In this document: positions 13,551 to 60,774 of the stretch, in pieces
How the letters are laid out: each line of letters opens with the position of its first letter
How positions within the stretch are numbered: the first letter of the stretch is position 1
NCBI RefSeq assembly: GCF_030705305.1
Contig: NZ_JAUZEE010000004.1
Coordinates: 329,736 to 393,735 of the forward strand
Direction of reading: 5' to 3'
Source of the DNA: Leptothrix discophora
Lineage (GTDB): Bacteria > Pseudomonadota > Gammaproteobacteria > Burkholderiales > Burkholderiaceae_C
DNA: 64,000 nucleotides
Notes under the pieces: model-generated
What the model was told of the DNA's origin: nothing
Databases searched by the model: none
Seen by the model: the letters and a program-made list of their open reading frames with translations, nothing else
Program-made: the position numbers and the translations under genes

Positions 13551-13577
13551 GTCAGCGGTCTCTTCAGGTGGTTGGAA

Positions 13578-14573
13578 TCAGAGCTGGATCGGCTGGCCGC
13601 TGTTGGCGCTCTCGGTCGCCGCGTCGGCCAGGATCTGCGCCTTCACGCCGTCGGCCACCGTGGTGCGGAAGGGCGCGCCGGTCTGCAGGCAGTCGAAGAA
13701 GTGGGCGATCTCGGCCTTGTAGGCGGCGGCATAGCGCTGCAGGAAGAAGGCCTCGGGCTTGTCGGCACGCACGCCCTGGGCATCCCACTGCACGACCTGG
13801 CTGGGCGTGTGGTTGCCGCACTGGAGCATGCCGGCCGATCCCAGCACCTCGAAGCGCTGGTCGTAGCCGTAGGCGGCACGGCGGCTGGTGTTGATCTGGC
13901 AGAGACGGCCCTTCTTCGTGCGGATCGTCACGGCGGTGCTGTCGTAGTCGCCCAGGCCGGCGATGGCCGGGTCGGTCAGCACCGAGCCGGAGGCACTCAG
14001 CCAGTCGGCCTCGTCGCCGTCGGCGCAGAGGATCCAGCGGAACACGTCCAGGTCGTGGATCAGCATGTCGCGGAAGATGCCACCGGAGGCCTTGATGTAT
14101 TCGGCCGGCGGGGCGCCCGGGTCGCGGCTGGTGATGATCAGCATCTCGGGATTGCCGATCTCGCCGCGGTCCATGCGGGTGCGGGCCTCGTTGAAGGTCG
14201 GGTCGAAGCGGCGCTGGAAGCCGATCATGCAGGCCACGCCGGCGGCCTTGACGGCCTCGCCGCAGGCGATGGCGCGCGGCACCGACAGGTCGACCGGCTT
14301 CTCGCAGAAGATGTGCTTGCCGGCGGCGGCCGCGCGGTTGATCAGGTCCGAATGGGTCGACGTCGGCGAGGTGATCGCCACCGCGTCGATGGACGGGTCG
14401 GCCAGCACCGCCTCGATGGTCGAGACCTGCGCGCCGAGCTGCTGCGCGAGCTGCGCGGCGCTGTCGCCCATCGGGTCACAGATGGACTGGAGCTTCACGC
14501 CAGGCAGCGAAGCCAGGTTGGTGGCGTGGATGCGGCCGATGCGGCCAGCGCCAAAGACGGCGACGTTCTTCAT
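13578..14573 (-). CDS. iolG: Inositol 2-dehydrogenase
   Basis: 331 residues, the usual length for IolG. The Rossmann motif GAGRIGRIH lies at the N-terminus, EKPVDL follows with the catalytic lysine near 92, and LIHDLDVFRW carries the conserved His-Asp (near 173-176). It oxidises myo-inositol to 2-keto-myo-inositol (scyllo-inosose), the entry step of the pathway completed by iolE, iolD, iolB and iolC further right. It is the first gene of a two-gene minus-strand operon. The start has a clean GAGGAG nine bases upstream. The divergent intergenic region towards iolI carries two inverted repeats of the GGAA-N6-TTCC type, 29 bp apart, so control by the RpiR regulator of this island is likely. Confidence 0.92.
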   Translation of the reverse strand: MKNVAVFGAGRIGRIHATNLASLPGVKLQSICDPMGDSAAQLAQQLGAQVSTIEAVLADPSIDAVAITSPTSTHSDLINRAAAAGKHIFCEKPVDLSVPRAIACGEAVKAAGVACMIGFQRRFDPTFNEARTRMDRGEIGNPEMLIITSRDPGAPPAEYIKASGGIFRDMLIHDLDVFRWILCADGDEADWLSASGSVLTDPAIAGLGDYDSTAVTIRTKKGRLCQINTSRRAAYGYDQRFEVLGSAGMLQCGNHTPSQVVQWDAQGVRADKPEAFFLQRYAAAYKAEIAHFFDCLQTGAPFRTTVADGVKAQILADAATESANSGQPIQL

Positions 14574-14926: not shown

Positions 14927-15760
14927 ATGTCCGCCCTCCGCTTCTGCCTGAACCGCATGTCCGCCCCGCGCATGGCCTTCGAGGCCTATGCCGCCATGAC
15001 CCGCCGGCTGGGCGTGCAGGCCATCGAGATCCGCAACGACCTGGGCGGTGTCGAGATCACCGACGGCACGCCGGCCGCCACGATCGGCGCCATCGCCCGT
15101 GACCACGGCCTGGTGATCCGCTCGATCAACGCGCTGCAGCGCTTCGAGCAGTTCACCGCCGAGCGCGAGGCCGAAGCCATCGAGCTGGCCCGCTACGCCC
15201 GCGACTGCGGCGCCGAGGCGCTGGTGCTCTGCCCCACCAACAGCCGCGCCGACCGGCGCTCGGCCGACGAGCGCCATGCCGCGCTGGTGCATGCGCTGAA
15301 GTCGCTCAAGCCCATCCTGGCCGACCACGGCATCGTCGGCCTGGTCGAGCCGCTGGGCTTCGAGGAATGCGCCGTGCGCCGCAAGTCGCAGGCCGTGCGC
15401 GCCTTCGAGGAGATCGGCGCCGACGCGACCTTCCGCCTGGTCCACGACACCTTCCACCACCACCTCGCCGGCGAAGGCCTGTTCTTCCCGCAGTGGACCG
15501 GCCTGATCCACATCTCCGGCGTCGAGGACTCGGCCGTGACCGTGCCCGACATGCGCGACGGCCACCGCGTGCTCGTCGGCTCGGCCGACCGGCTGGGCAA
15601 CCCGGCACAGATCCGCCGCCTGCTGGACGCCGGCTACGCGGGCTACGTGTCCTTCGAGCCCTTCGCGGAATCGGTCGCGGCCTCGGCCTCGATCGAGGCG
15701 GAACTGGCCGCCAGCATGGCCTGGCTGGACGCCTCGGTGGCGACCGCTCAGCCGGCCTGA
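14927..15760 (+). CDS. iolI: 2-keto-myo-inositol isomerase (TIM barrel)
   Basis: 277 residues from the ATG at 14927 (CTGGAGAC just upstream); an upstream start would add 41 non-conserved residues. The protein is a xylose-isomerase-like TIM barrel of the length of Bacillus IolI (278). Shared landmarks are IEIRNDLG near the N-terminus, LVEPLGF with the metal-binding Glu, LVHDTFHHHLAG with the Asp/His metal ligands, and SFEPF at the end with the last Glu. IolI interconverts 2-keto-myo-inositol and 1-keto-D-chiro-inositol, linking D-chiro-inositol use to the main pathway. It is divergent from iolG and is followed after 31 bp by a LacI regulator on the same strand. Confidence 0.85.
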   Translation: MSALRFCLNRMSAPRMAFEAYAAMTRRLGVQAIEIRNDLGGVEITDGTPAATIGAIARDHGLVIRSINALQRFEQFTAEREAEAIELARYARDCGAEALVLCPTNSRADRRSADERHAALVHALKSLKPILADHGIVGLVEPLGFEECAVRRKSQAVRAFEEIGADATFRLVHDTFHHHLAGEGLFFPQWTGLIHISGVEDSAVTVPDMRDGHRVLVGSADRLGNPAQIRRLLDAGYAGYVSFEPFAESVAASASIEAELAASMAWLDASVATAQPA

Positions 15761-15791: not shown

Positions 15792-16937
15792 ATGAGCGCC
15801 ACGACGTCGCATCATCCGGCGATGGTCCGTCGCAAGCGCTCTGCCCGATTCATCGAGATCGCCGCCGCTGCCGGCGTCAGCATCTCGACCGTCAACCGCG
15901 TGCTCAACGAGCGCGGCAGCGTCTCGTCCGAGACCCGCGCCCGTGTCGTCGCCGCAGCCAAGCAACTGGGCGTGCCGCGCGTGCTGCCCGATCCGCGCCA
16001 TGGCCTGACCCGCTATGACGTGATCCTCGCGGCCAGCCCGACGCCCTACTTCGGCCGCCTGGAACTGGCCTTGCAGCGCAGCGCGCAGATGCTGGACACG
16101 CGCATCGTGATCCACCGCCACCGGGTCGACGCGGCCGACGAGGCGGCGCTGCTGCAGGCCATCGGCCAGCCTCGCCACCGACGCGACGGCCTGATGGTCG
16201 CGCTGCACGACAGCGCCGCGGTGCGCGAGGCCCTGCGGGCCCAGCGCGAGCGCGGCATCCCGGTGGTGACGCTCATGAGCGCGATCGGCGCGCCGGGCGA
16301 GATCGACGGCCTGCGCTACGTCGGCATCGACAACCTGCGCGCCGGCCGCACCGCCGGCCACTTCATCGGTCGCATGACGCCGGCCAGCGCCGGCCCGGGC
16401 CATGTCCTGCTGCTGACCCATCGCCTGAGTTACCGCGCGCATGCCGAACGCATCGAGGGCTGCCGGCAGGTGCTGGCCGGGCGCCACCCGCACCTGACGC
16501 TGGCCGAGCCGGTCGAGTGCCTGGACGATGCCGACCGCAACCAGCTGGCGGTGCAGCAGGCACTGCAGGCCAGCCGCCGCGACGGCCTGCCGCTGGTGGC
16601 GATCTATCACAGCGGCGCGGGCAGCTCCGGCATCGCGCGGGCGCTGCAACAGGCGCGTGGCCTGCTGCCGCGCCGCGTCACCTGGATCGGCCACGAGTTG
16701 AGCGACGACCACCGCCGCTGGCTGCGCGAGGACCTGCTGGACCTCGCCATCGACCAGGACCCGGACGGCCAGATCGTCGCCGGCCTGCACCACCTGCTGC
16801 ATGCCAGCGGCTACGTCGATGACGCGCCGCGCGACGAGCCGAACGACTTCCGGCTGTTCTGCGCCGAGAACCTGCGTGAACTGCCGCCCTACCTGGACGG
16901 ACCGCTGCATGCACCGCTCGAGAAGATCGTCCGCTGA
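15792..16937 (+). CDS. LacI-family transcriptional regulator
   Basis: 381 residues. The N-terminal helix-turn-helix (about 20-65) reads IAAAAGVSISTVNRVLNERG, a typical LacI HTH with hinge region. A periplasmic-binding-protein-like sensor domain of the type-4 fold follows (about 75-345). It lies 31 bp downstream of iolI and probably shares its transcript. It most likely senses an inositol or derivative and controls part of the island, but neither the ligand nor the operator can be read from the sequence. It is a different subfamily from the LacI protein at 24761. Confidence 0.85.
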   Translation: MSATTSHHPAMVRRKRSARFIEIAAAAGVSISTVNRVLNERGSVSSETRARVVAAAKQLGVPRVLPDPRHGLTRYDVILAASPTPYFGRLELALQRSAQMLDTRIVIHRHRVDAADEAALLQAIGQPRHRRDGLMVALHDSAAVREALRAQRERGIPVVTLMSAIGAPGEIDGLRYVGIDNLRAGRTAGHFIGRMTPASAGPGHVLLLTHRLSYRAHAERIEGCRQVLAGRHPHLTLAEPVECLDDADRNQLAVQQALQASRRDGLPLVAIYHSGAGSSGIARALQQARGLLPRRVTWIGHELSDDHRRWLREDLLDLAIDQDPDGQIVAGLHHLLHASGYVDDAPRDEPNDFRLFCAENLRELPPYLDGPLHAPLEKIVR

Positions 16938-16965: not shown

Positions 16966-17856
16966 TCAGGTGGCCGTGTCGCGCACCGCGCCGGACAGGG
17001 TGGTCGGCCGGTACGGCAGTTCGAGCCGGTAGGCCAGGGCGATGAACAGGCTCTGCGCCAGGCCCATCGTGCTGGTCAGCGAACGGAAGCCGAAGGTCGA
17101 GTTGTCCTGCACCACCAGCGCGACCTGGGCCTCGCGGGCCAGCGGGCTCATGCGGCTGTCGGTGATCGCGATCAGCTTGGCGCCACGCTGCACCGCCTGC
17201 TGGGCCACCGTGACCGTCTCCTCGGCATAGGGCGCGAAGGAGATCGCGATGATCACGTCGCCGGCCCGCACCGAGCGGGTCTGGCCCTCGTGCATGCTGC
17301 CCATCGCGCTGACCAGCATGATCCGCTTGTCGGTGTGCTGCAGCGCGTAGTCGAGGTAGACGGCGACCGAGAAGCTGCGCCGCGAGCCGCAGATCCAGAT
17401 CACGTCGGTCTCGGCCAGCAGGTCGACCGCGAGCTTGAAGGCCGGGCCGCTCAGGTCGTGCTGAAGCTCCTGCATGCCGGCGATGCTGCCGCCGAGGAAC
17501 TCGTGCGCGATCTCGACCGCCGACAGGCTGCCCGCGCCGGAGTCGATCACCTCGCGGATGCGGGCCTTGTAGTTGCGGCTCGGCGCGATCTGCTGGCTCA
17601 GGCCGTCGCGGAAGATGCGCTGCAGCTCGGTGTAGCCGCTGAAGCCGAAATGCTTGGCGAAGCGCACGACCGCCGAAGGCTGCACGCCGCACTGCGCGGC
17701 AACTTCCTGGATGCCCTCGAGCCCGAGGTGGTCGCGGTGCTGCTCGACATGCCGGGCGATCAGCTTGAGCTGCTTGCTCAGGCTCTCGTATTCCTCGGAG
17801 ATGCGCTTGAGGAGCTGGTCGACGGTGAGCTTCTGCGGAGCGATGTCAGGCGTCAT
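16966..17856 (-). CDS. RpiR-family regulator with SIS domain, probable IolR-type inositol repressor
   Basis: 296 residues from the ATG at 17854-17856; a GTG 51 bases upstream would give 313. An N-terminal RpiR helix-turn-helix (about 15-85, with QPSAVVRFAKHFGFSGYTE) is followed by an SIS sugar-isomerase domain (about 130-260, CGSRRSFSVAVY and the SFAPYAEET loop). RpiR proteins named IolR repress inositol genes in Salmonella and Sinorhizobium. Its position among iol genes makes the same role the best guess, though specificity is not proven here. Its own promoter, shared with the divergent mocF-like gene, carries three GAA-N6-TT(T/G)C boxes spaced exactly 30 bp, suggesting autoregulation. Confidence 0.85.
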   Translation of the reverse strand: MTPDIAPQKLTVDQLLKRISEEYESLSKQLKLIARHVEQHRDHLGLEGIQEVAAQCGVQPSAVVRFAKHFGFSGYTELQRIFRDGLSQQIAPSRNYKARIREVIDSGAGSLSAVEIAHEFLGGSIAGMQELQHDLSGPAFKLAVDLLAETDVIWICGSRRSFSVAVYLDYALQHTDKRIMLVSAMGSMHEGQTRSVRAGDVIIAISFAPYAEETVTVAQQAVQRGAKLIAITDSRMSPLAREAQVALVVQDNSTFGFRSLTSTMGLAQSLFIALAYRLELPYRPTTLSGAVRDTAT

Positions 17857-17916
17857 GGAAGGCGGCCCTGTGGTGGCTCGGCCGGGTCGGCCGGGAACGG
17901 TTGTCACACGATTGTA

Positions 17917-18080: not shown

Positions 18081-19325
18081 ATGCACAACTCCCAGGAAGC
18101 CGCCATGGTGATCGTCGGCGCCGGCCATGTCGGTGGCCGGACCGCCCAGCATCTGCGCGAGGCCGGCTGGACCGGCGAGATCGTGCTGATCGGGGCCGAG
18201 CCCGCCCTGCCCTATGAACGCCCGCCTCTGTCCAAGGGCGTGCTGACCGGCGCGCAGACGCTGGCGCAGACGGCCATCCTGACGCCCGAAGCCTGCGACG
18301 CCGCCCGCATCACGCACTGGACCGGCACGGTCAGCGCGATCCATCCGATGGCGCGCCAGGTGAGCCTGTCCGACGGCCGCAGCCTCGCCTACCGCGCCCT
18401 GCTGCTGGCCACCGGCGGCCATGCCCGCGCGCTGTCCATCCCCGGTGCCGACCATCCCGCCGTGCAGGCGCTGCGGACCCAGACCGACGCGGTCGCGCTG
18501 GCGCCGCGCCTGCGGCCCGGCGCACATGTCGTGCTGGTCGGCGGCGGCTTCATCGGCCTGGAGGTGGCGGCCTCGGCGCTGGCCATGGGCTGCCGCGTCA
18601 CCCTGCTCGAAGGCGCGCCGCGCCTGATGGGCCGGGCCGTGCCGGCCAGCGTGGCCGAGCGCGTGCTCGCGCTGCACCGTCGCCACGGCGTGGACGTGCG
18701 CCTGGGCGTCGTGCCGCGGGCCTTCGAGGCCCAGGGCGATGGCCTGACCGTTCACCTGACCGCGGGCGAACCGCTGCAGGCCGATGCCGTCGTGGTCGGC
18801 ATCGGCATCGAGCCGGCGACCGAGCTGGCGCGTGCGGCCGGGCTGCGCACCGATCGAGGCATCGTGGTCGATCGCCGCCTGGCGACGTCCGCCGCCGGTG
18901 TCTACGCGGCCGGCGACGTGGCCGAGTTCCCGAGCCCGCTGTCGGGCCTGCCGATCCGCCAGGAAACCTGGCACAACGCCGAGACCCAGGCCCGTGTCGC
19001 GGCGCTCAACATGCTCGGCGGCGACGAGACCCATGCCAGCACCGCCTGGTTCTGGTCCGACCAGTTCGACTGGCAGCTGCAGGTCAGCGGCGAGCCGGCG
19101 CTGGGCGTCACCACGGTGCAGCGACCGCTGGCCGATGCCGATGCGGAACTGAACCTCTACCTCGATGCCGACGGCCGCATCGTCGGCGTCAGCGGCTGCG
19201 GCCCGACCTCGGCCGTGGCCAAGGAACTGAAGCTCGCCCGCACGCTGGTCGAACGCGGCGTGCGCAGCAACGCCCAGACGCTGGCCGACCCTGCCGTCAA
19301 GCTCAAGAGCCTGCTGTCGGCCTGA
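18081..19325 (+). CDS. FAD-dependent ferredoxin reductase, MocF-like
   Basis: 414 residues. The N-terminal FAD site is VIVGAGHVGGRTAQHLRE, the NAD(P) site VLVGGGFIGLEVAA lies near 150, and VYAAGDVAE (near 275) is the second FAD motif. This is the layout of class-I oxygenase ferredoxin reductases (HcaD/ThcD/MocF type). It should pass electrons from NAD(P)H to a Rieske ferredoxin. The best candidate is the MocE-like protein encoded 4 kb away at 23144-23452, which in turn would feed the MocD-like oxygenase. It starts a plus-strand run with the PanB-like, purU and TIM-barrel genes. A later ATG at 18105 with AGGA upstream is an alternative start (406 residues). Confidence 0.82.
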   Translation: MHNSQEAAMVIVGAGHVGGRTAQHLREAGWTGEIVLIGAEPALPYERPPLSKGVLTGAQTLAQTAILTPEACDAARITHWTGTVSAIHPMARQVSLSDGRSLAYRALLLATGGHARALSIPGADHPAVQALRTQTDAVALAPRLRPGAHVVLVGGGFIGLEVAASALAMGCRVTLLEGAPRLMGRAVPASVAERVLALHRRHGVDVRLGVVPRAFEAQGDGLTVHLTAGEPLQADAVVVGIGIEPATELARAAGLRTDRGIVVDRRLATSAAGVYAAGDVAEFPSPLSGLPIRQETWHNAETQARVAALNMLGGDETHASTAWFWSDQFDWQLQVSGEPALGVTTVQRPLADADAELNLYLDADGRIVGVSGCGPTSAVAKELKLARTLVERGVRSNAQTLADPAVKLKSLLSA

Positions 19326-19364
19326 GCACCGCCCCTGCCGATCCCACCTCTGACTGGACGCCCC

Positions 19365-20165
19365 ATGAAGAAGCCCCAACGCCCGACCATCGCCGACCTG
19401 CTGGCCCTCAAGGGCCAGCGCCAGCTGAGCATGCTGCGGGTCGAGACGCTGGACGAGGCCGCCGCCGCGCAGCAGGCCGGCATCGACCTGGTGTCGGTCC
19501 CGCCGGCCCTGCTGGGCCCGGCCTTCCGCGAAGCCGCGCCGACGATCTTCGCCATCCCCGGCTTGGAATATGGCGACTTCATCACCGCCGAGGACTACCT
19601 GCGCGCGGCCTTCGCGGCGATGCGAGCCGGCGGTGACGCGGTCTACTGCGCCGCCAGCATGGGCATCGTGCGCCGGCTGCGCGACGAGGGCATCCCCGTG
19701 TGCGGCCACAGCGGCCTGATCCCGTCGCAGGCCACCTGGACCGGCGGCTTCAAGGCGGTCGGCAAGACGCTGGACAGCGCGATGCTCGTCTACCGGCAGG
19801 TCCAGGCGCTGGAGGAAGCCGGCGCCTTCGCCGCCGAGATCGAGGTCGTGCCGGCCGAGGTCGCCGCGCTGATCTCGCGGCGCACGAAGCTGCTGCTGAT
19901 CTCGATGGGCGCGGGCGCCGGCTGCGACGCGCAATACCTGTTCGCCAGCGACGTGCTGGGCTTCAACCGCGGCCATGTGCCGCGCCACGCCAGGCAGTAC
20001 CGCAACTTCGCGGCGGAATACGACCGCCTGCAGGCCGAGCGTGTCGCCGCCTTCCAGGAATACCAGGCCGACGTGGCCGGCGGCGCCTACCCCGAGAAGC
20101 GCCACGAGGTCAGCGTCGCGCCGGACGTGCTGGCGCAGTTCGCCGACGCGCTCGACCGGGCCTGA
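19365..20165 (+). CDS. PanB-like protein lacking the metal ligands of ketopantoate hydroxymethyltransferase
   Basis: 266 residues, the length of PanB, with several PanB blocks preserved: VCGHSGLIPSQ (112-122), the glycine-rich turn after it, EVVP with the catalytic Glu (160), ISMGAGAGCDAQYLF, and RGHVPRHARQYRNF. The three Mg ligands of PanB are lost: the VGDSLG site reads VSVPPA, the ADLPF site reads AIPGLEY, and the KIEGG site reads YCAAS. It is therefore unlikely to be the housekeeping pantothenate enzyme, and no other pan gene is nearby. It sits between the ferredoxin reductase and purU, so a role with a one-carbon unit or an aldol-type step in methyl-inositol breakdown is the working idea (inference). 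The function is not established. Confidence 0.7.
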   Translation: MKKPQRPTIADLLALKGQRQLSMLRVETLDEAAAAQQAGIDLVSVPPALLGPAFREAAPTIFAIPGLEYGDFITAEDYLRAAFAAMRAGGDAVYCAASMGIVRRLRDEGIPVCGHSGLIPSQATWTGGFKAVGKTLDSAMLVYRQVQALEEAGAFAAEIEVVPAEVAALISRRTKLLLISMGAGAGCDAQYLFASDVLGFNRGHVPRHARQYRNFAAEYDRLQAERVAAFQEYQADVAGGAYPEKRHEVSVAPDVLAQFADALDRA

Positions 20166-20268
20166 TCCCGCGCGCCTGCGGCGACCTTCCCTTCGCATCC
20201 GCCCGCCTGGCCGGCCGCATCACGCGGCGGGCGGGGCGCAGCCTTGTCCTTCCCACGCCAGCCCGACC

Positions 20269-20316
20269 ATGAGCACGACCATCAGCACGACCATCAGCAC
20301 GACCATGAGCCCGACC
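20269..20316 (+). repeat. 12-bp tandem repeat at the purU start
   Basis: Four 12-base units occur in tandem: ATGAGCACGACC, ATCAGCACGACC twice, then ATGAGCCCGACC. They encode MSTT-ISTT-ISTT-MSPT, so both the first and last units supply an ATG. Gain or loss of units would keep the frame and only move the upstream start. Confidence 0.8.
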
Positions 20317-21153
20317 TACATCCTCACGCTTTCCTGCCCCGACCAGCCTGGCATCGTGCACGGCGTGGCCGGTCTGCTGTTCACGCTGGGCGGCAACATC
20401 ACCGAGGCGGCGCAGTTCAACGACGCGCAGACGGGCCTGTTCTTCATGCGCGTGCAGTTCGCCTGCGAGCAGACCACGCAGGCCGGGCTGGAGAACGCGC
20501 TGGCCGAGCTGGCCGCGCAATGGCGCATGAGCACCGAGCTGAAGCGGGCCGACACGAAGATGTCGACCGTCATCCTGGTGAGCCAGCACGGTCACTGCCT
20601 CAACGACCTGCTGTTCCGCTTCAAGAGCGGCCTGCTGCCGATCGACATCCGCGCGATCGTCTCCAACCACCGCGACTTCTACCAGCTCGCGGCCAGCTAC
20701 AACATCCCCTTCCACCACATCGCGGTGACGGCGGCGAGCAAGGCCGATGCGGAGGCCCGCCAGCTCGACATCATCCGCAACGAAGGCGCCGAGCTGGTCG
20801 TGCTGGCGCGCTACATGCAGGTCCTGAGCGACCCGATGTGCCGTGCGCTGAGCGGCAAGGCCATCAACATCCACCACAGCTTCCTGCCCAGCTTCAAGGG
20901 CGCGCGGCCCTACTACCAGGCGCTGGACCGCGGCGTGAAGCTGATCGGCGCGACCGCCCACTACGTGACGGCCGACCTCGACGAGGGCCCGATCATCGAG
21001 CAGGACGTGGCCCGCGTGGACCACAGCCTGACGGTCGATGACCTGACCTCGATCGGCCGCGACACCGAAAGCCAGGTGCTGGCGCGCGCCGTCAAGTGGC
21101 ACAGCGAACACCGCGTGCTGCTCAATGGGCACAAGACCGTCATCTTCAAGTGA
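20269..21153 (+). CDS. purU: Formyltetrahydrofolate deformylase
   Basis: 294 residues from the first ATG, or 282 from the ATG at 20305, which matches the usual ~280 of PurU. An N-terminal ACT domain (from YILTLSCPDQPGIVHG) is followed by a formyl-transferase-like catalytic domain. The catalytic block INIHHSFLPSFKGARPY and the later GATAHYVTADLDEGPII contain the expected Asn/His and Asp. The enzyme hydrolyses 10-formyl-THF to formate and THF. In demethylation gene clusters it typically disposes of the carbon released as formaldehyde, which fits its place after the MocF-like gene. The next gene overlaps its stop by four bases (GTGA), implying translational coupling. The first codons are a 12-bp tandem repeat. 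Confidence 0.9.
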   Translation: MSTTISTTISTTMSPTYILTLSCPDQPGIVHGVAGLLFTLGGNITEAAQFNDAQTGLFFMRVQFACEQTTQAGLENALAELAAQWRMSTELKRADTKMSTVILVSQHGHCLNDLLFRFKSGLLPIDIRAIVSNHRDFYQLAASYNIPFHHIAVTAASKADAEARQLDIIRNEGAELVVLARYMQVLSDPMCRALSGKAINIHHSFLPSFKGARPYYQALDRGVKLIGATAHYVTADLDEGPIIEQDVARVDHSLTVDDLTSIGRDTESQVLARAVKWHSEHRVLLNGHKTVIFK

Positions 21154-22211
21154 GCGCGGCGAGCCTGACCGACGCCGTCGCCACAGGCTCATCGACTGAG
21201 CCAGTGGCCAGCCGCGTTGCCGCGCCGCTGCGGGTGGGCATCAACATCGACGGCGTGCTGCTGCACGACGGCATCCGCACGCCACAGCCGGCCACGCGCT
21301 ACGCCTGGGTGCGTCACAGCGGGGCCTTCGACTATGTCGAGAAGAACATCGACCCGAGCGAGGACTTCACGCCCTGGTTCGACCTGGTCGAGCGCCACGG
21401 CCTGCCCATCGGCGTGTTCGGCGGCATCTTCTGTGCCGGCCGCGACGAGGCCCGCATGCGCTGGGGCCTGGCCACCGGCGGGCGGCTCGGCGCGAGGCTG
21501 TTCAACATGCAGCTGTTCGCGCGCCACTTCGGCGGGCGGCCGATCACCGATGCGCAGGTCGTCGACTTCTACTGCGAGGCGCTCGATCACGGCGGCCCGG
21601 TCGGCTGCCTGCCGACGCTGGAGGTCCACGTCGACATGTGGAACGAGGACTTCCGCCGGGTCGAGCGCGTGGCCGACCTGCTGGCGCGCCAGAACGTGCC
21701 GCTGCGCCTGACGCTGGACCACTCGCACCTGATCTTCAAGATCGGCCATGCCGCCGAGCTGGCCGCCAGCGGCCTGGCCGACCAGCCCGACGGCGCCCGT
21801 GCGCTGCTGTCACCCGACAGCGACCAGGCGCTCTACGCGATGTGGCTGCGCGAAGGCTGGGTGGCCCATGCGCACGCCCGCAGCGTCGCGCCGGGCATCG
21901 CGCACAACGCGGCCATGAATCGCCAGCGCGACCTGCCCGGCCGCGCGATCCAGTACCCCTTCGTCCAGCCGCCGCCCGGCACGTTCCATGCCGACTGGCG
22001 TGAGGAAGCGCTGCAACCCTGGAAGGATGCGGTGATCGCGCTGCTCGACTGGATGCGCGACCACCCGGACCGCGCGCCGCAGCAGATCAGCTGCGAGTTC
22101 ATTCCCTTCGCCGACTACGGCGGCGGCGGGCGCTACCCGATCTGGGACAACAACCTCGCCTGCGCCGCATGGCTGCGGCGGGTGTGGGCGCAGCGCGGGC
22201 TCACGGACTGA
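21150..22211 (+). CDS. Xylose-isomerase-like TIM-barrel protein of unassigned substrate
   Basis: 353 residues from a GTG at 21150 that overlaps the purU stop (GTGA); there is no in-frame ATG near the conserved start, so coupled translation is likely. The protein looks like the sugar-phosphate isomerase/epimerase (AP endonuclease family 2) barrel. Candidate metal ligands are Glu in LEVHVDMW, Asp/His in LTLDHSHLIFK, His in VAHAHARS and Glu in ISCEFIPFADY. It is longer than IolI, IolE or typical IolH and shows no close match that I can name. MocC of rhizopine catabolism is of this general fold, so action on a keto-inositol or inosamine is possible (inference). It is the last gene of the mocF-like-panB-like-purU run and converges on terC with a 9-base gap. 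Confidence 0.7.
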   Translation: MSAASLTDAVATGSSTEPVASRVAAPLRVGINIDGVLLHDGIRTPQPATRYAWVRHSGAFDYVEKNIDPSEDFTPWFDLVERHGLPIGVFGGIFCAGRDEARMRWGLATGGRLGARLFNMQLFARHFGGRPITDAQVVDFYCEALDHGGPVGCLPTLEVHVDMWNEDFRRVERVADLLARQNVPLRLTLDHSHLIFKIGHAAELAASGLADQPDGARALLSPDSDQALYAMWLREGWVAHAHARSVAPGIAHNAAMNRQRDLPGRAIQYPFVQPPPGTFHADWREEALQPWKDAVIALLDWMRDHPDRAPQQISCEFIPFADYGGGGRYPIWDNNLACAAWLRRVWAQRGLTD

Positions 22212-22220
22212 GCCCGACGT

Positions 22221-22970
<750 letters not shown>

Positions 22971-23047
22971 GGGTATCCCTCGGGGCGTGGTGTGGTTGAA
23001 CGTGGAAGCGTGGAAACGTCGTGACGTGGTGACACGCAAACGTCAAA

Positions 23048-23073
23048 GGGCCGGTGCCCTGAAGCACCGGCCC
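23048..23073 (-). terminator. Strong hairpin after mocE-like gene
   Basis: GGGCCGGTGC-N6-GCACCGGCCC is a perfect ten-base stem. Read on the minus strand it is followed by TTTGACGTTT, a modest U-rich tail. It lies about 70 bases past the mocE-like stop and separates the mocDE-like operon from terC. Confidence 0.75.
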
Positions 23074-23143
23074 GCGTTTCCGTCAGACGCCGTGTGAACC
23101 TGCGTCCGAGCGGAAAGTTCCCACCGATTCTGACGTCCCGCGC

Positions 23144-23452
23144 TCAGACCTCGATCTGGATCCGGCCGTCGGCGATGCGCGCCGGCCAGGTCTTGAGGTT
23201 GACGCACACCGGCGCGCCCAGCGCGCGGCCGTCGCGGATGTCGAAGCGGCCGTTGTGCTTCGGGCACTCGATCACGTGCTCCATGACCAGGCCGTCGCAG
23301 AGGTGGACCTGCTCGTGCGTGCACAGGCCGTCGCTGGCGTAGACCTGGCCGTCGTAGCGGTAGACGGCGTAGGTCTTGCCGCCGTGGTCGAAGCGCATGA
23401 CGTCCTCGTCGTCGAGGTCGTCCAGCGCGCAGACGTTCACCCAGGTGCTCAT
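23144..23452 (-). CDS. mocE: Rieske [2Fe-2S] ferredoxin, MocE-like
   Basis: 102 residues, a stand-alone Rieske ferredoxin. The cluster-binding motifs are CTH (44-46) and CPKH (63-66), separated by the usual 16 residues. It lies 42 bp downstream of the MocD-like oxygenase gene, with AAGGAG ahead of its ATG, so the two form an operon. In Rhizobium rhizopine catabolism MocE is the ferredoxin of a MocD-MocE-MocF demethylating complex; this gene occupies the same position next to an equivalent oxygenase, with a matching reductase at 18081. The symbol rests on family plus context; the substrate is inferred. Confidence 0.8.
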   Translation of the reverse strand: MSTWVNVCALDDLDDEDVMRFDHGGKTYAVYRYDGQVYASDGLCTHEQVHLCDGLVMEHVIECPKHNGRFDIRDGRALGAPVCVNLKTWPARIADGRIQIEV

Positions 23453-23494
23453 GTCGTGTCTCCTTGTTCGGGGCTTGCGAGGTTCAGGACCGGA

Positions 23495-24586
23495 TCAGGC
23501 GCGGACCGCCGGCGCCGGGATCGGGCGCTGCACGAAGTGGCCCGGCTCGCGGCGCTGGCGCAGCACGGCCGGAATGATCTCGCGGTAGGCCTGCCAGGTG
23601 CCGGTGTAGGCGGGCGGGCAGTCGGCCTGGATCGCCGCATGCAGGCGGGGCAGCGCGTGGTACGGGACCATCGGGAACATGTGGTGTTCGACGTGGTAGT
23701 TCATGTTCCAGTAGAGGAAACGGAACACCGGGTTCATGTGGACCGTGCGGCAGTTGCGGCGGTGGTCGGTCACGTTCTCCGGCAGGCCGGCATGCTGGGT
23801 GAAGCCGAAGAAGTTGAACAGCCAGGCACCGGCAAAGGACGGCAGGCCGATGAAGAACAGCGGCAGCCAGCTTTGCAGCAGCACGGCCGCGAGGACCACC
23901 ACGGCGTAGACCAGCAGCCAGGCGCGGGCCTCGCGGACCATCTTCGGCCATTCCATCTCGGGCACGAAGGTCTTCTCCTCCGCGTCGAGCTGGCCGAATG
24001 CATTGGCGACGACACGGGCCAGCTCGCGCGGGCCGCTGCGCAGCTGGAACAGGTTGAGGACGGTCGAGGCCAGGTCGGTCGGCACCGGCACCGCGATCTC
24101 CGGATCGCGGCCGGTCACCAGGGTGTCGGTGTGGTGGCGGGCATGACTCCAGCGCCAGCGGGTCGGGCGGCGCAGCACCATGAAGCTGGCGACCTGGTAG
24201 AGCGCATCGCTCATCCAGCGGGTCTTGAAGGGCGTGCCGTGGCTGGACTCGTGCCAGCGCGAGTCGGCCGGACCGCAGTACAGCGTCGCGTAGACGAAAA
24301 AGGCGAGCGCGAACCAGGCCGTGCCCCAGCTCAGCGCCATGGCCACGCCGGCTGCGGCGATGACGCCGAACCACAGCAGCGTGTCGCGGATGGCCGGGCC
24401 GTCGCTGCGCTTCATCAGCTCCTTCATCAGCGCGCGCGGCACCTCGCAGCGGTACCAGTCGGCGTTGACCAGGCCGGCGGCTTGCGCGCGCTCGCCGGCC
24501 CCGCCGATCAGGGCGTAGTCGGACAGCGTCGGCTGCGGGCTGCGGATGGCGGCCGGGGCCGTCAGGGTGGCGGTGGATGCGCTCAT
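23495..24586 (-). CDS. mocD: Membrane di-iron oxygenase/fatty-acid-desaturase fold, MocD-like
   Basis: 363 residues from the ATG at 24584-24586 (AAGGA upstream); a 35-residue longer frame has no support. Two pairs of hydrophobic helices (about 68-100 and 220-265) surround three histidine boxes: HESSH (112-116), HARHH (148-152) and HVEHH (298-302), the di-iron site of desaturases and alkane-hydroxylase-like enzymes. MocD of Rhizobium is this kind of protein and is proposed to oxidise the O-methyl group of rhizopine. Context agrees: a Rieske ferredoxin gene follows immediately, a complete inositol pathway surrounds it, and purU is nearby. A perfect GGAA-N6-TTCC box sits 36 bases upstream of the start. 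A true lipid desaturase is the main alternative. Confidence 0.78.
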   Translation of the reverse strand: MSASTATLTAPAAIRSPQPTLSDYALIGGAGERAQAAGLVNADWYRCEVPRALMKELMKRSDGPAIRDTLLWFGVIAAAGVAMALSWGTAWFALAFFVYATLYCGPADSRWHESSHGTPFKTRWMSDALYQVASFMVLRRPTRWRWSHARHHTDTLVTGRDPEIAVPVPTDLASTVLNLFQLRSGPRELARVVANAFGQLDAEEKTFVPEMEWPKMVREARAWLLVYAVVVLAAVLLQSWLPLFFIGLPSFAGAWLFNFFGFTQHAGLPENVTDHRRNCRTVHMNPVFRFLYWNMNYHVEHHMFPMVPYHALPRLHAAIQADCPPAYTGTWQAYREIIPAVLRQRREPGHFVQRPIPAPAVRA

Positions 24587-24621
24587 GTCTTGGGGTCCTT
24601 GTTTCGTGTCGCACGTCAGTT

Positions 24622-24635
24622 GGAAATGAATTTCC
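24622..24635. promoter_or_regulatory. Perfect GGAA-N6-TTCC inverted repeat at the mocD/lacI divergent promoter
   Basis: GGAA-atgaat-TTCC is the only fully consensus copy of this motif that I found in the window. The 14-mer TGGAAATGAATTTC is shared exactly with the promoter region between the inositol-binding-protein and iolC genes (29847-29860). It lies 36 bases upstream of the mocD-like start. Confidence 0.65.
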
Positions 24636-24760: not shown

Positions 24761-25837
24761 ATGACGGGACGCGCCACGCTCAACGACGTCGCCGCCGCCG
24801 CGGGCGTCAGCAGCGCCACGGTCGACCGGGTGCTCAACAGCCGACTGCCGGTCAAGGAGGCGACCGCGCTGCGGGTCATCGAGGCGGCCGAGCGGCTCGG
24901 CCACCACGGCGCGCGGCTGATGCGCGAACGTCTGCGCGAGCACACCGAGCTGCGTTCGCTGGGCTTCTGCCTGCAGAAGCGCCATGCCGCCTTCTACCGG
25001 GCCTTCGCCGACGACCTGAACGCGGCGGTGGCTGCGCCGGGGCAGCCGCGCGCGGTCTCGGTCATCGAGTACATCGACGCGCTGGAGCCGGGCGAGATCG
25101 CGCGGCGCATCCTGGCGGTCGGCCGCGAGGTCGACGCGCTGGCGCTGGTGGCGATCGAGCATCCGCACGTGACCGAGGCGGTCCGGACGCTGCATGCCGA
25201 GGGCCGGCCCTGCTGGACGCTGCTGTCGGACCTGAGCGTGCCCGAGCGGGCCGGCTACGTCGGCGTGGACGGCCGCAAGAGCGGGCGCACTGCCGCCTGG
25301 ACCATCAGCCGGCTGGCGCGCGCACCGGGGCCGGTGGCGGTCTTCGTCGGCAGCTACCGCTACCTGGGGCAGGAGGCCTGCGAGATGAGCTTCCGGGCCT
25401 ACCTGCGCGAGCACGCGCCGCAGTTCCGCGTGCTCGACACCCTCGTCAACCTGGAGGACGACCAGATGGCCTACGAGGCCACGCTGGACCTGCTGCGGCG
25501 CGAGCCCGGCCTGGTCGGCCTGTATGCGGCCGGTGGCGGGGTGGCCGGCATGATCCGGGCGCTGCGCGAGGAGGCCAGCCTGCGCCCGCCGGGCGCCACG
25601 GCGCCGCGGCCGCACATCGTCACGGTCTGCAACGAGCTGACGCCCGAGCACCGCGCCGGCCTGGTCGACGGCCTGGTCGACCTGGTGCTGGGCACGCCCA
25701 CCCCGCGCATCGCCCGCACCGTCGTCGCGGCGATGCACGCGGCCATCGACCGGCGCGGCACGCCCGCCGCCGCGAACCATCCCCTGGCGGTGCAGATGAG
25801 CCTGCCGGCCGATCTGTACGTGGCGGAGAACCTGTGA
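24761..25837 (+). CDS. LacI-family transcriptional regulator beside the moc-like genes
   Basis: 358 residues. The HTH reads LNDVAAAAGVSSATVDRVLNSR; the VDRVLN variant is common in sugar-sensing LacI proteins with ribose-type ligand domains. A periplasmic-binding-protein-like sensor follows (about 60-330). It starts at an ATG with CAGGAG upstream and is divergent from the mocDE-like operon, whose local regulator it probably is. It converges on the inositol ABC transporter genes across a strong terminator. Ligand unknown; an O-methyl inositol or inosamine would fit the context (inference). Confidence 0.86.
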   Translation: MTGRATLNDVAAAAGVSSATVDRVLNSRLPVKEATALRVIEAAERLGHHGARLMRERLREHTELRSLGFCLQKRHAAFYRAFADDLNAAVAAPGQPRAVSVIEYIDALEPGEIARRILAVGREVDALALVAIEHPHVTEAVRTLHAEGRPCWTLLSDLSVPERAGYVGVDGRKSGRTAAWTISRLARAPGPVAVFVGSYRYLGQEACEMSFRAYLREHAPQFRVLDTLVNLEDDQMAYEATLDLLRREPGLVGLYAAGGGVAGMIRALREEASLRPPGATAPRPHIVTVCNELTPEHRAGLVDGLVDLVLGTPTPRIARTVVAAMHAAIDRRGTPAAANHPLAVQMSLPADLYVAENL

Positions 25838-25979: not shown

Positions 25980-27005
25980 TCAGCTGCGGCGCTTGCGCTG
26001 GCGGTACTGGTCGGCCACCACGGCGGCCACGATGATGGCGCCCTTGACCATCTCCTGGTAGTACGCGTCGATGCGGATGAAGGTGAAGCCCGAGGTCATC
26101 ACGCCCAGGATCAGCACGCCGATCACGGTGCCGGTGATGCGGCCCAGGCCGCCCGACAGCGAGGTGCCGCCGATGACGACCGCCGCGATGGCGTCCAGCT
26201 CGTACATCACGCCCATGCCCGACTGGCCGGAGATCGCGCGGGCCGCCGTCACGCTGCCGGCGATGCCGCTGAGCAGGCCGGCGATGGCGTAGATCCAGAT
26301 CAGGTGGCGGTTGACGTTGATGCCCGAGACCAGCGCGGCCTGGCGGTTCGCGCCGATGGCGTAGGTGAACTTGCCGAAGCGGGTGTAGCGCAGCACGACG
26401 TGGAAGATCGCCGCGAGGGTCAGGAAGATGAAGACCGGCACGACGCCCGAGCCGATCCAGGCGAAGTCGTCGGTCAGCATCGACACCGGCATGCCGCCGG
26501 TGAACCACTTGGCGAAGCCGCGCGCGGCCACCATCGTGCCCAGCGTGGCGATGAACGGCGGGATGGCGGTGTAGGCGATCAGCGAGCCGTTGATCACGCC
26601 GATCACCAGGCCGGCCGCGACGCCGGCCAGGATCGGGTAGATCGCCGGCAGGTCGGTCAGCTGCGGGAAGACCGCGCGGGGGAAGTCCGAGACCTGCGCC
26701 AGGCTGGCCGCAACCACCGCCGAGGCGGCCACCACCGAGCCCGAGGACAGGTCGATGCCGCTGGTGATGATCACCAGGTTGACGCCCACCGCGATGATGC
26801 CGATGACCGCCATCTGCAGGATGATGATCTGCAGCCGCTCCGGGTTCATCAGGAAGCTCTGGCCGTTGATCCACCAGCCCAGCGCCTCGAAGAACAGGCT
26901 GATGCCGACCAGCACGAGAAGGATGCCGAGTTCGGGCGGCACCTTGCGGCGCGCCGGCTTGAAGGTCATGGACTGCGCGCCCACGGTCGAATTCAGGAGA
27001 CTCAT
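25980..27005 (-). CDS. iatP: Inositol ABC transporter, permease (RbsC/XylH type)
   Basis: 341 residues with about ten hydrophobic helices and the conserved [20 protein letters not shown] and [18 protein letters not shown] blocks of the BPD_transp_2 (ribose/xylose) permease family. It forms the membrane channel for the binding protein and ATPase encoded upstream on the same strand (order: binding protein, ATPase, permease, with 147- and 52-base gaps). The inositol assignment comes from the divergent iolCDEB operon and the surrounding iol genes; IatP/IatA/IbpA is the known naming in Caulobacter. A ribose-type substrate cannot be excluded from the permease alone. Confidence 0.85.
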
Positions 27006-27057
27006 GGTGATACCTGCTGGGTCTGGGTCTGGGTAAGGGGGGTCGGGACCGGCGCGT

Positions 27058-28572
27058 TCACGACGAGGCCAGTTCCATGATGCGGACCTGGTCGGCCTCG
27101 GCCCGGTCGACGATGCCGGTCATGTGGCCTTCGTGCATGACCATGACGCGGTCGCTCATGCCGAGCACCTCGGGCATCTCCGAGGAGATCATCAGCACCG
27201 CGACGCCCTGGCCGGCCAGCTGCGAGACCAGCCTGTGGATCTCGGCCTTGGCCCCGACGTCGATGCCGCGGGTCGGCTCGTCGAGGATCAGGATCTTCGG
27301 GTTCGTCAGCAGCCAGCGGCCGATCAGCACCTTCTGCTGGTTGCCGCCCGACAGGTTCTGGATCACCTCGGCCAGGTTGGGCGTCTTCACGCGCAGCTTG
27401 GCGCTCATGGCCTCGCAGTCGCGCTTGAGCTGGCCTTCCTGCACGAAGCCGAACTTGACGTAGCGCTGGCTCAGCACCGCCGTGTCCATGTTGGCCAGGA
27501 TGTCGAGCAGCAGGAAGCAGCCGGTGTCCTTGCGGTCCTCGGTCAGGAAGGCCATGCCGTGGCGCATGGCCTGGGCCGGACTGCCGATCACGACGGGCTG
27601 ATCGTCGATGCGGATCTCGCCCTCGGTGGCCGGCACGACGCCGAACAGCGCCTCGGCCACGTTCGAGCGGCCCGAGCCGACCAGGCCCGCCAGGCCGAGG
27701 ATCTCGCCGGCGCGCAGGTCGAAGCTGACGCCGCTGAAGATGCCGTTGACGCCGAGGTTGCGCACCGACAGGACGACCTCGCCGATCGGCACGGTCTCCT
27801 TCGGGAACATCTGCGTGACCTCGCGGCCGACCATCATCTTGATGATGTCGTCGCGCGTGACCTCGGTGGACAGGCGGGTGTCGATGTACTTGCCATCGCG
27901 GAACACCGACACCTCGTCGGCGATCTCGAACAGCTCGTTCATCTTGTGGGTGATGTAGACGATGCCTTTGCCCTGTGCCCGCAGCTGCTTGATGATGCGG
28001 AACAGGTGGGCGACTTCCTTGTCGGTCAGCGCCGAGGTGGGCTCGTCCATGATCAGCACGTCCGAGTCGAAGGACACGGCCTTGGCGATCTCCACCATCT
28101 GGCGGCTGGCGATGGACAGCGAGCGGACCTCGGCCTCGGGATCGATGTCGATCACCAGCCGGTCGAACAGCGCCTGCGTGCGGCGACGCAGCTCGGCATG
28201 GTCGACGAAGCCAAGCCGGTTCTTCGGCTCGCGGCGGATCCAGATGTTCTCGGCCACCGTCATGTAGGGCATCAGGTTGAGTTCCTGATGGATCATGGCG
28301 ATGCCGTTGTTGAGCGCATCGAGCGGGCCACTCAGCGTCAGGGCACGGCCCTTGACGCGCAGCTCGCCCTGATCGGGGATATAGACGCCGGCGATGATCT
28401 TCATCAGCGTCGACTTGCCCGCGCCGTTCTCGCCCATCAGGGCATGCACGGTGCCGGCACGCAGCTTGAAGCGCACGTCGTCCAGGGCGACGACGCCGGG
28501 AAAGGCCTTGCGCACGCCGGCGATCTCGAGCAGCGGCGGCTCGGTGGCGGCGGCAGGGGCGTTGGGGGACAT
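27058..28572 (-). CDS. iatA: Inositol ABC transporter, double ATP-binding protein
   Basis: 504 residues with two ABC domains, as in RbsA. The first has Walker [10 protein letters not shown] (about 48-56) and Walker [12 protein letters not shown]. The second has a degenerate Walker A (GLVGSGRSN), an intact signature LSGGNQQK and Walker [13 protein letters not shown]. This asymmetry is normal for carbohydrate importers of the CUT2 class. It powers uptake with the permease and binding protein flanking it. GAGG lies about nine bases before the ATG. Substrate assigned by context to inositol. Confidence 0.87.

Positions 28573-59253: not shown

Positions 59254-60774
<1,521 letters not shown>

Follow-up and report, generated by a model that had tools for sequence, protein, structure and literature searches.

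What does a MocDEF-type oxygenase module do inside an inositol (iol) cluster, and where does the carbon that it removes go? Demethylation by the rhizobial MocDEF proteins is proposed to precede inositol catabolism. We found such a module in a 64,000-nucleotide stretch of the Leptothrix discophora genome, here called the window. We consider it reasonably probable that MocDEF in this iol cluster demethylates an O-methyl-inositol, most likely of the pinitol type, and that a PanB-like protein and PurU take the resulting formaldehyde over tetrahydrofolate (THF) to formate.

Table 1. Features of the locus, numbered from the first nucleotide of the window; scores are in bits against the model cut-off.
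Feature	Position	Strand	Basis
Second Gfo/Idh/MocA dehydrogenase, IolG-like	12507..13550	-	TIGR04380, 290.4 vs 355, below cut-off
IolG inositol 2-dehydrogenase	13578..14573	-	TIGR04380, 409.5 vs 355
tim1, TIM barrel (AP_endonuc_2), IolI-like candidate inosose isomerase	14927..15760	+	PF01261
Second LacI-family regulator	15792..16937	+	PF00356
RpiR-family regulator, IolR-like candidate	16966..17907	-	HTH_6 + SIS
MocF-type FAD ferredoxin reductase	18081..19325	+	Pyr_redox_2 + Reductase_C
PanB-like paralogue, module member with a probable C1-handling role	19365..20165	+	PF02548; below both panB cut-offs
PurU, formyltetrahydrofolate deformylase	20305..21153	+	TIGR00655; start is one of several candidates
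tim2, probable inosose isomerase/epimerase	21204..22211	+	related to genes named xylose isomerase; start chosen among candidates
TerC-family membrane protein	22221..23039	-	PF03741; between both module halves
MocE, Rieske [2Fe-2S] ferredoxin	23144..23452	-	TIGR02377, over cut-off
MocD, desaturase-fold di-iron oxygenase	23495..24586	-	FA_desaturase match, three His boxes
15-bp motif TTGGAAATGAATTTC	24620..24634	+	upstream of mocD
LacI-family regulator divergent from mocD	24761..25837	+	PF00356 + PF13407
Sugar/cyclitol ABC importer	25980..29772	-	permease 25980-27005, ATPase 27058-28572, binding protein 28720-29772
Motif TTGGAAATGAATTTC, second exact copy	29846..29860	+	between divergent ABC and iolC genes
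Fused IolC kinase/aldolase	29998..31950	+	NF047869, 1023.9 vs 600
IolD	32008..33897	+	TIGR04377, 851.3 vs 715
IolE	33952..34881	+	TIGR04379, 374.8 vs 290
IolB	34911..35714	+	TIGR04378, 322.5 vs 205
MmsA/IolA, CoA-acylating methylmalonate-semialdehyde dehydrogenase	59254..60825	-	TIGR01722, 693.6 vs 448.5

The oxygenase, Rieske ferredoxin and FAD reductase named by the sequence-only reading are all present where it placed them, with 42 bp between mocE and mocD and with mocF on the opposite strand, 3.8 kb from mocE (its "4 kb"). MocE exceeds the curated cut-off of TIGR02377 MocE_fam_FeS (153.9 vs 136.15 bits). MocD, scanned as a longer frame reaching to 24691, matches Pfam FA_desaturase with 130.6 bits and carries His boxes (H147xxxH151, H183xxHH187 and H333xxHH337 in the numbering of that frame) that are all invariant among 35 aligned homologues. 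For most homologues the alignment lies wholly downstream of the start at 24586; this start is provisional because three Sphaerotilus matches reach into the longer frame, beginning at its residues 7-23. MocF does not reach its nearest NCBIfam models, HcaD (334 of 450 bits) and AndAa (332 of 650 bits). It shares 44-45% identity with the reductases encoded next to mocDE in R. leguminosarum 248 and R. etli, 59% with the B. cenocepacia protein and 88% with that of S. mobilis. Comparison with the R. leguminosarum and R. etli sets places the window proteins as homologues of the rhizobial ones, and the linkage of a desaturase-family oxygenase with three His boxes, a MocE ferredoxin and an FAD reductase identifies a MocDEF module. 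Both the family membership and the electron-transfer logic assumed for it are supported. That MocD is an acyl-lipid desaturase lying incidentally beside the iol genes is hardly credible: although it falls in the FA_desaturase Pfam family and its best NCBIfam relative is the Delta10 desaturase DesB, it scores only 41.3 of 500 bits there and reaches no NCBIfam equivalog, its MocE partner is over cut-off, and MocD is linked to iol genes in several lineages.

The module had been described as split in two, which is true in the window but only locally, since in two Sphaerotilus loci mocDEF, the panB-like gene and purU are contiguous on a single strand. Relative to those loci the mocF block is inverted and the TerC gene interposed, and judging from gene order the separation of mocDE from mocF is a local rearrangement. 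The TerC gene, which adjoins mocE in S. mobilis (L005) too, is not thought to be a pathway member. The proposed operon of the reductase with one-carbon genes stood in part: PurU exceeds its TIGR00655 cut-off (326.5 vs 285.95 bits), but the panB-named gene falls far below those for PanB.

The inositol pathway is complete, as the sequence-only reading held, with IolG, IolC/aldolase, IolD, IolE, IolB and IolA all over their cut-offs. The IolA gene, however, lies 24 kb away. The ABC importer is under the cut-offs of the sugar-specific models that it matched. Against the PDB, tim1 matches IolI weakly (1i60, E 0.0015) and 2q02 (putative cytoplasmic protein) and 4hgx strongly, and it shares 54-60% identity with the TIM-barrel proteins encoded close to mocD in Rhizobium and Burkholderia. 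Pfam and NCBIfam scans gave no match for tim2; it is 55% identical to a xylose-isomerase-named gene beside mocDEF in B. cenocepacia, a name that suggests a TIM-barrel fold. The LacI regulator divergent from mocD is 43-45% identical to the one beside mocD in R. leguminosarum and R. etli. Additionally, TTGGAAATGAATTTC is a candidate shared operator of the mocD and ABC/iolC promoter regions. At ≤3 mismatches it had three matches, one of them the overlapping reverse reading, with 0.09 expected. Three Sphaerotilus loci have a related motif at the equivalent ABC/iolC site. No copy was found in front of the Sphaerotilus mocD, and the 13-base core of TTGGAAATGAATTTC also occurs within mocF at three Burkholderia loci and in a further locus (L166).

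Two substrates had been suggested for this module, rhizopine and plant O-methyl inositols. Catabolism of rhizopine (3-O-methyl-scyllo-inosamine) as in S. meliloti L5-30, in which MocDEF demethylates and MocABC with MocR completes the pathway, would fit the MocDEF and MocE family membership, the MocA/IolG-type dehydrogenases and the ABC importer. We nevertheless judge it very unlikely here. The cluster's binding protein scores 37.2 bits on the model of MocB, the rhizopine binding protein (NF052284), whose cut-off is 420, and the regulators scanned at 12-38 kb are LacI, LacI and RpiR in place of MocR, a GntR/aminotransferase-like regulator. No gene for amino-group removal was found among the genes scanned in the same interval. 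Across 151 Rhizobiaceae genomes, MocB is over its cut-off in 3 and MocD loci (>340 bits) occur in 34; no MocD was found near those three MocB genes in pieces of up to ~9 kb on each side, one of which ended at a contig end.

An O-methyl-inositol such as pinitol or ononitol holds up as the likely substrate class, and fits better than rhizopine because IolG, TIM-barrel proteins and iol genes are retained beside the module in near relatives. Burkholderia has a compact locus, iolG - tim1 - tim2 - lacI - mocDEF, and one Rhizobiaceae genome (L172) brings together panB-like, iolBEDCG, ABC, tim1, lacI and mocDEF. R. mesoamericanum induces its mocDEF homologues along with iol genes in response to a Mimosa exudate of which pinitol, at 145 uM, was the largest component, an induction that the authors of that study read as rhizopine use (PMC5789663). 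Among the open-licence PMC papers that our searches listed we saw no bacterial demethylation pathway for methylated inositols, and we came across no substrate or activity assay of any module member. A different target, some other O-methyl sugar or cyclitol derivative rather than free O-methyl-inositol, would leave the role of the PanB-like protein and PurU unchanged. Matches to iolB/C/D/E/G, at the thresholds used and within the available stretch, accompany 15 of 80 MocD loci, which means that MocD proteins at large also act on other substrates; among the 65 loci without detected iol genes many are from Verrucomicrobia and some are on short contigs. No mocF match accompanies five mocD-mocE-panB-like loci of Rhizobiaceae (L145, L147, L148, L150, L153), most of which carry sugar ABC genes. 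For the window itself we regard such a target as unlikely, as the window and its nearest relatives embed the module in iol genes with IolG and the tim genes.

The gene between mocF and purU is named panB, and its product scores 120.1 vs 272 bits (NF001452) and 103.3 vs 207.55 bits (TIGR00222) against the PanB models; a separate canonical panB lies elsewhere in the same genome. The GDS, D84 and K112/E114 of PanB are replaced, with H136/E181 retained. The metal-site residues, which we take to be D45, D84 and E114 in E. coli PanB, are replaced in 12 of 12 aligned close-clade rows, and G66 (in place of D84), P46-P47 and Y94-C95 are invariant across 35 homologues. The protein is 71-73% identical to the R. 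etli and R. leguminosarum copies downstream of mocDEF, compared with 54-56% for MocD between the window and Rhizobium, which would be expected if what it acts on is the same product whatever the substrate. In R. etli, loss of panB causes auxotrophy even though RHE_PE00443 is present; no metal-binding domain was detected in that protein, and it did not complement panB (PMC3082293). RHE_PE00443 is apparently RHE_RS26335, the panB-named gene directly behind mocDEF on p42e, to judge by its plasmid, product name, length and gene order. By these comparisons the panB-named gene of the window is evidently not PanB and belongs to the MocDEF module. The sequence-only reading had missed this, and also a second, parallel module in the genome.

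Linkage counts point the same way. PanB-like genes lie within 5 kb of 29 of 39 MocD loci (>340 bits) in the 151 Rhizobiaceae genomes and are absent from that distance at the other 10, and 28 of 29 PanB-like genes >285 bits adjoin MocD, an association far above chance. Among PLSDB plasmid records, 282 have MocD (E <= 1e-5) and 254 PanB-like (E <= 1e-40), with similar figures by genus (Rhizobium, 147 vs 142; Sinorhizobium, 85 vs 87). The PanB-like gene is not obligatory for MocD, because many MocD genomes are without it: of 300 Burkholderiales genomes, 7 have MocD >340 bits and only the window's own also has PanB-like >285 bits, and 16 of 18 selected MocD genomes had no PanB-like match at E <= 1e-30, although 17 of these 18 loci were already known to be without it.

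The PanB-like clade turns up repeatedly next to hydroxylases of an unrelated family, PF04116, as well. The second module in the window's genome comprises a PF04116 oxygenase, a PanB-like protein, a MocE-like ferredoxin, PurU and FolD; a second MocE copy in the genome falls slightly under the TIGR02377 cut-off (129-130 bits). Its FolD and PurU (316.6 bits) are over NCBIfam cut-offs, and its PanB-like copy is below those for PanB (95.5 bits, TIGR00222; 114.1 bits, NF001452). All 8 such oxygenases on the PanB-like tree exceed the PF04116 cut-off; MocE homologues are near 5 of these 8 loci and PurU near 3, and S. mobilis also has FolD at its locus. The PF04116 label requires at least 5 changes on the tree, a count possibly inflated by two unlabelled rows limited by contig pieces.

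The company that it keeps with oxygenases suggests that the panB-named gene between mocF and purU likely handles formaldehyde. The PanB-like protein might instead work on the sugar part of the pathway, as a lyase, aldolase or isomerase. Its AlphaFold model (moderate confidence, pLDDT 73) has PanB as first PDB match, with lyases of the isocitrate-lyase/PEP-mutase superfamily among the matches that follow, and distant paralogues (186-196 bits; L179, L180, L182) occur without an oxygenase, their neighbours being a weak match to the IolC-kinase query and ABC genes. A sugar-directed role of this kind seems rather doubtful, given that the close clade tracks two unrelated oxygenases, that PurU adjoins several of its members, and that iolG and tim genes vary in presence across it.

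We return to demethylation of an O-methyl-inositol, for which gene content, family membership, conserved linkage and the replaced PanB metal-site residues are observed, and substrate, MocD reaction and the roles of tim1, tim2 and the PanB-like protein are inferred. Uptake of the methyl-cyclitol would likely be by the ABC importer. Electrons from NAD(P)H would reach the di-iron oxygenase MocD by way of MocF and then the Rieske ferredoxin MocE, and hydroxylation of the methyl group by MocD would release it as formaldehyde. The demethylated cyclitol would be oxidised and isomerised to 2-keto-myo-inositol by IolG together with tim1 and tim2, and broken down further by IolE, D, B, C and A. We propose that the PanB-like protein handles the one-carbon product, perhaps by loading formaldehyde onto THF. 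The resulting 5,10-methylene-THF would be converted to 10-formyl-THF by FolD and then by PurU to formate and free THF. FolD was not found among the window genes scanned; one copy lies in the second module. THF is not the sole formaldehyde sink, because the genome has a glutathione-dependent formaldehyde dehydrogenase (614 vs 544 bits). More tentatively, and as a possibility that falls clearly short of probable, the PanB-like clade may be a dedicated formaldehyde-to-THF loader, a PanB fold without its metal site that plugs into two unrelated di-iron O-demethylase families and feeds FolD/PurU. He et al. describe the spontaneous formaldehyde-THF reaction as too slow for effective assimilation and considered whether E. 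coli PanB might catalyse it promiscuously; deletion of panB and ltaE, which concerns canonical PanB, left THF-dependent formaldehyde use in E. coli unchanged (PMC7073904).

Known systems share parts of this scheme. The rhizobial MocDEF ferredoxin-oxygenase complex of S. meliloti L5-30 and R. leguminosarum (Bahar 1998, as cited in PMC10107442 and PMC5789663) has the same desaturase-type oxygenase, MocE-family Rieske ferredoxin and FAD reductase. In the window, by contrast, the cluster yielded neither MocB nor MocR, its regulators are LacI/RpiR, PanB-like and PurU genes stand in the reductase operon, and mocDE and mocF are on opposite strands. The loci of R. leguminosarum 248 (L084) and R. etli CFN42 p42e (L199) have homologous tim1, LacI, mocD, mocE, mocF and PanB-like genes; there, however, mocDEF-panB-like is contiguous on one strand, and PurU and iol genes are absent from the flanks shown. 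With PanB (ketopantoate hydroxymethyltransferase) the PanB-like protein shares the fold, C-terminal half and active-site His and Glu, but its metal-site residues are replaced, it is below cut-offs, and its apparent R. etli orthologue is non-complementing. The known amine-oxidase route likewise ties demethylation to methylene-THF and then to FolD and PurU; there the amine oxidase itself yields methylene-THF, whereas the window has a di-iron oxygenase with the PanB-like protein at the C1-loading place. The job proposed for the PanB-like protein, catalysed attachment of formaldehyde to a C1 carrier, is like that of Fae (formaldehyde-activating enzyme), whose carrier is tetrahydromethanopterin (PMC7073904).

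Legumes and other plants are rich in methylated inositols, pinitol among them. If our reading is true, mocDEF, usually discussed as a rhizopine trait, would mostly be a common demethylase of methyl-inositols or methyl-sugars, and the annotation of a large PanB-named clade would be wrong. If the clade is, more specifically, a dedicated formaldehyde-THF loader, such an enzyme would sit on >200 rhizobial plasmid records alone, among a large set of proteins named as pantothenate enzymes. The linkage of a PanB-fold protein to enzymes expected to release formaldehyde makes the question of a catalysed formaldehyde-THF reaction directly testable.

The window encodes a predicted MocDEF O-demethylation module of rhizobial kind within a betaproteobacterial inositol cluster. 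Using codon-position composition and family scans to pick out the real genes, we found MocD, MocE and MocF in the expected families and just where the sequence-only reading had placed them, and the inositol pathway is complete inside the window, as that reading had also held, with IolA 24 kb off. MocD as a lipid desaturase was ruled out on scores. Searched by fold against the PDB, the MocD model had only two matches below E 0.001, both uninformative chains of the chloroplast FtsHi motor complex (E 4e-5 and 6e-5); sequence searches against solved structures gave one weak, irrelevant match for MocD and nothing for tim2, and an Rfam scan of 12-38 kb gave no match. The window, part of a 4.65-Mb genome, encodes a PanB-like protein with 93% identity to one of Leptothrix sp. 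BB-4 and a MocF with 88% identity to that of Sphaerotilus mobilis. By eye only, we also observed a porin-like reading frame at 36382-37107, with iolB on one side and a Gfo/Idh gene on the other, that may let the substrate of the pathway through the outer membrane, and, after the iol cluster (38987-57019), glycogen branching and trehalose/maltose-type alpha-amylase genes with a sugar ABC importer.

Features of the MocDEF module in the window and of a second module in the same genome
Feature	Location	Strand	Family or score
tim1	window 14927-15760	+	TIM barrel
RpiR	window 16966-17907	-	
MocF	window 18081-19325	+	FAD reductase
PanB-like gene	window 19365-20165	+	
PurU	window 20305-21153	+	
tim2	window 21204-22211	+	
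TerC	window 22221-23039	-	
MocE	window 23144-23452	-	Rieske ferredoxin
MocD	window 23495-24586	-	oxygenase
LacI	window 24761-25837	+	
Second module	L117 (G000:C28:64000-82000), 3219-14451		same genome as window
folD	L117		527.6 vs 421 bits
purU	L117		316.6 vs 285.95 bits
MocE-like ferredoxin	L117		130 bits, just below cut-off 136
Second PanB-like protein	L117		61% identical
PF04116 hydroxylase	L117		Pfam family
Other genes	L117		RpiR and LacI regulators, IolG-like dehydrogenase, TIM barrel, sugar ABC genes

The separation of mocF from mocDE, which the sequence-only reading had taken as a split module, is real, but a functional meaning was rejected on comparison with Sphaerotilus, two loci of which have the genes contiguous. 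Sphaerotilus hippei (L004) and one Sphaerotilus MAG (L006) share an order in which a divergent lacI is followed on one strand by mocD, mocE, mocF, the panB-like gene and purU, with tim2 after purU in L004, and the module is flanked by the same ABC/iolCDE genes on one side and rpiR on the other. In the window, the block of mocF, panB-like gene, purU and tim2 is inverted and the TerC gene separates the halves. tim2 and mocF are likewise inverted in a Burkholderiales MAG (L008), and mocF lies ~15 kb from mocD in S. mobilis, whose stretches read (L005, L197) held no match to panB-like, purU or tim2. These gene orders therefore point to a local rearrangement. The S. hippei PanB-like gene (L004 near 12179-13093) does not read through in one frame, only residues 179-266 matching there, either through decay or sequencing error.

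The substrate of MocDEF here is most likely O-methyl-inositols, not rhizopine. The proposed use of plant O-methyl inositols (pinitol, ononitol) is favoured by the company of iolG, tim and iol genes: Burkholderia has a compact module of iolG, tim1, tim2, lacI, mocD, mocE and mocF, and a Rhizobiaceae genome (L172) carries panB-like, iolB/E/D/C/G, ABC, tim1, lacI and mocDEF in a single stretch. Once its methyl group is gone, an inositol other than the myo form, D-chiro-inositol for example, needs IolG together with inosose isomerases to enter the myo pathway. IolI takes part in the D-chiro-inositol step of B. subtilis, and tim1, which resembles it only weakly in a sequence search of solved structures, may be an IolI-like inosose isomerase. 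D-chiro-inositol is described in B. subtilis as handled via 1-keto-D-chiro-inositol (PMC5504672). Additionally, the mocDEF homologues and iol genes of R. mesoamericanum are reported to respond to a root exudate in which pinitol stands at 145 uM and inositol at 0.73 uM, although the authors of that study themselves inferred rhizopine (PMC5789663).

Rhizopine as the substrate, which the sequence-only reading had also entertained, is rejected as unlikely for want of MocB and MocR in the cluster: the window binding protein scores 37 bits on the rhizopine binding protein model (cut-off 420), and MocR was not found there. MocB exceeds its cut-off in 3 of 151 Rhizobiaceae genomes, and MocD loci over 340 bits occur in 34. 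The stretches covered around these three MocB genes (L163-L165) showed no MocD, although their genomes do have it elsewhere. A MocB-based DNA search of plasmids hit 15 records, none of them at 80% query coverage, and so revealed no close rhizopine locus. The wider MocD family clearly serves more than inositols. By our own thresholds, and with many contigs short, 15 of 80 MocD loci had an iolB/C/D/E/G match, or 18 counting tim1 and tim2. In Pseudomonas syringae, mocDEF adjoins a gene named xylA2, and the authors are described as leaving its role open (PMC5132102). At L166-L168 we also observed divergent MocD relatives of ~145-160 bits, another oxygenase subfamily, accompanied by mocF-like reductases and by ABC genes.

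A 15-bp motif, TTGGAAATGAATTTC, is present upstream of mocD and again in the gap from which the ABC and iolC genes diverge; its chance expectation in the window is 0.09 matches at up to 3 mismatches. Three Sphaerotilus loci have a close relative at the corresponding iolC/ABC site, but none was found upstream of their mocD. The 13-base core of the motif also has matches within genes, namely in mocF at three Burkholderia loci and in the L166 mocF-like frame, where it cannot have the same meaning. We take the motif to resemble the GGAA-N6-TTCC box of RpiR-type IolR, and the window RpiR is therefore a candidate regulator that may act at this motif.

The PanB-like protein is rejected as a pantothenate enzyme on model cut-offs, metal residues, a separate canonical copy and a result from R. 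etli. It scores 120 vs 272 and 103 vs 207.55 bits on two PanB models, and the canonical panB of the same genome scores 333 bits on the Pfam model. Aligned to E. coli PanB (1m3u), D84 is replaced by G66 and K112/E114 by a YCA segment, with H136 and E181 retained; D84 and E114 are metal-site residues of E. coli PanB, and the retained His and Glu belong to its active site. The GDS motif is replaced by PPALL or similar in 12 close-clade rows aligned, the second-module copy differing there, and P46-P47, G66, Y94-C95, H115 and E160 are invariant across 35 homologues. In R. etli CFN42, RHE_PE00443 of p42e was shown not to support pantothenate synthesis; it retains only 5 of 12 active-site residues and has no detected metal-binding domain (PMC3082293). 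Within the 470-505 kb of p42e read, a panB-named gene lies directly behind mocDEF, and its product shares 71% identity with that of the window. The plasmid it is on, its product name, its length and the order of genes around it lead us to infer that this gene is RHE_PE00443. The structure model is moderate (pLDDT 73.4, TM ~0.6 to PanB), so no active-site claim is based on it. A protein search scored 5753 of 7997 candidates at E <= 1e-10, a set that may include canonical PanB, and named proteins among the 120 matches listed were called PanB or 'hypothetical protein'. Our literature searches for a PanB paralogue in demethylation listed none beyond the R. etli pantothenate study.

In Rhizobiaceae, the PanB-like gene is linked to MocD. 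Across the 151 Rhizobiaceae genomes we found 39 MocD loci over 340 bits, 29 with a PanB-like gene within 5 kb and 10 without; of the 29 PanB-like genes that score above 285 bits, 28 are neighbours of MocD. Counted by genome, 27 have both, 7 MocD only, none PanB-like only (over 250 bits) and 117 neither (Fisher p = 1e-23, kinship ignored). All 36 Rhizobiaceae places where a PanB-like match reaches 215 bits or more comprise 29 within 5 kb of MocD, one (L172) that shares a cluster with MocD at a distance of 14 kb, five with a PF04116 hydroxylase, unrelated to MocD, at 1-8 kb (L146, L174, L175, L176, L177), and one (L178) with mocE and mocF and no oxygenase found. Four of eight weaker places (147-196 bits) were examined and had no oxygenase match (L179-L182); one of the other four has a MocD match of 276 bits 9.6 kb away. 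In L179, L180 and L182, PanB-like genes of 186-196 bits lie beside a weak IolC kinase query match and sugar ABC genes. Our tree has 39 rows from the PanB family, and the PF04116 label, borne by 8 of them with every one above the Pfam cut-off, requires at least 5 changes on it; rows L154 and L178 are unlabelled, limited by contig pieces, the MocD of L155 is divergent (155 bits), L151 and L152 come from a separate search and L117 from this genome. Absences of the gene count against the proposed partnership, beginning with the 10 Rhizobiaceae loci above. Among 300 Burkholderiales genomes, MocD exceeds 340 bits in 7, with PanB-like over 285 bits in the window's own only. No PanB-like match at E <= 1e-30 was found in 16 of 18 MocD genomes searched, 17 of which had a locus already known to lack the gene. 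At fifteen Burkholderiales loci with a related paralogue (199-217 bits, some of them short), no oxygenase match reached 150 bits. Loci L118-L132 (Burkholderiales) hold a PanB paralogue family other than the window's, with proteins of ~300 aa that begin MASHATGDGG or similar and are 40-46% identical; it lacks the PanB metal motifs in five rows aligned and has no oxygenase match nearby.

The strongest case for a PanB-like protein that serves the one-carbon product, not the sugar, comes from the second module, matched in S. mobilis (L198) by the order folD, purU, mocE, iolG-like, panB-like, PF04116-homologue and ABC. A GH3 glycosidase gene adjoins this module in L117. On paper, its folD would complete a route from formaldehyde through methylene-THF and formyl-THF to formate. 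The one-carbon chemistry proposed for the PanB-like protein is a guess from its neighbours, and the glutathione-dependent formaldehyde dehydrogenase also encoded by the genome counts against it. In E. coli, a panB and ltaE double deletion is reported to leave THF-dependent growth on formaldehyde unchanged (He et al., PMC7073904); the gene deleted there is canonical panB. The proposed one-carbon role of the PanB-fold partner is the novel, testable part of the finding.
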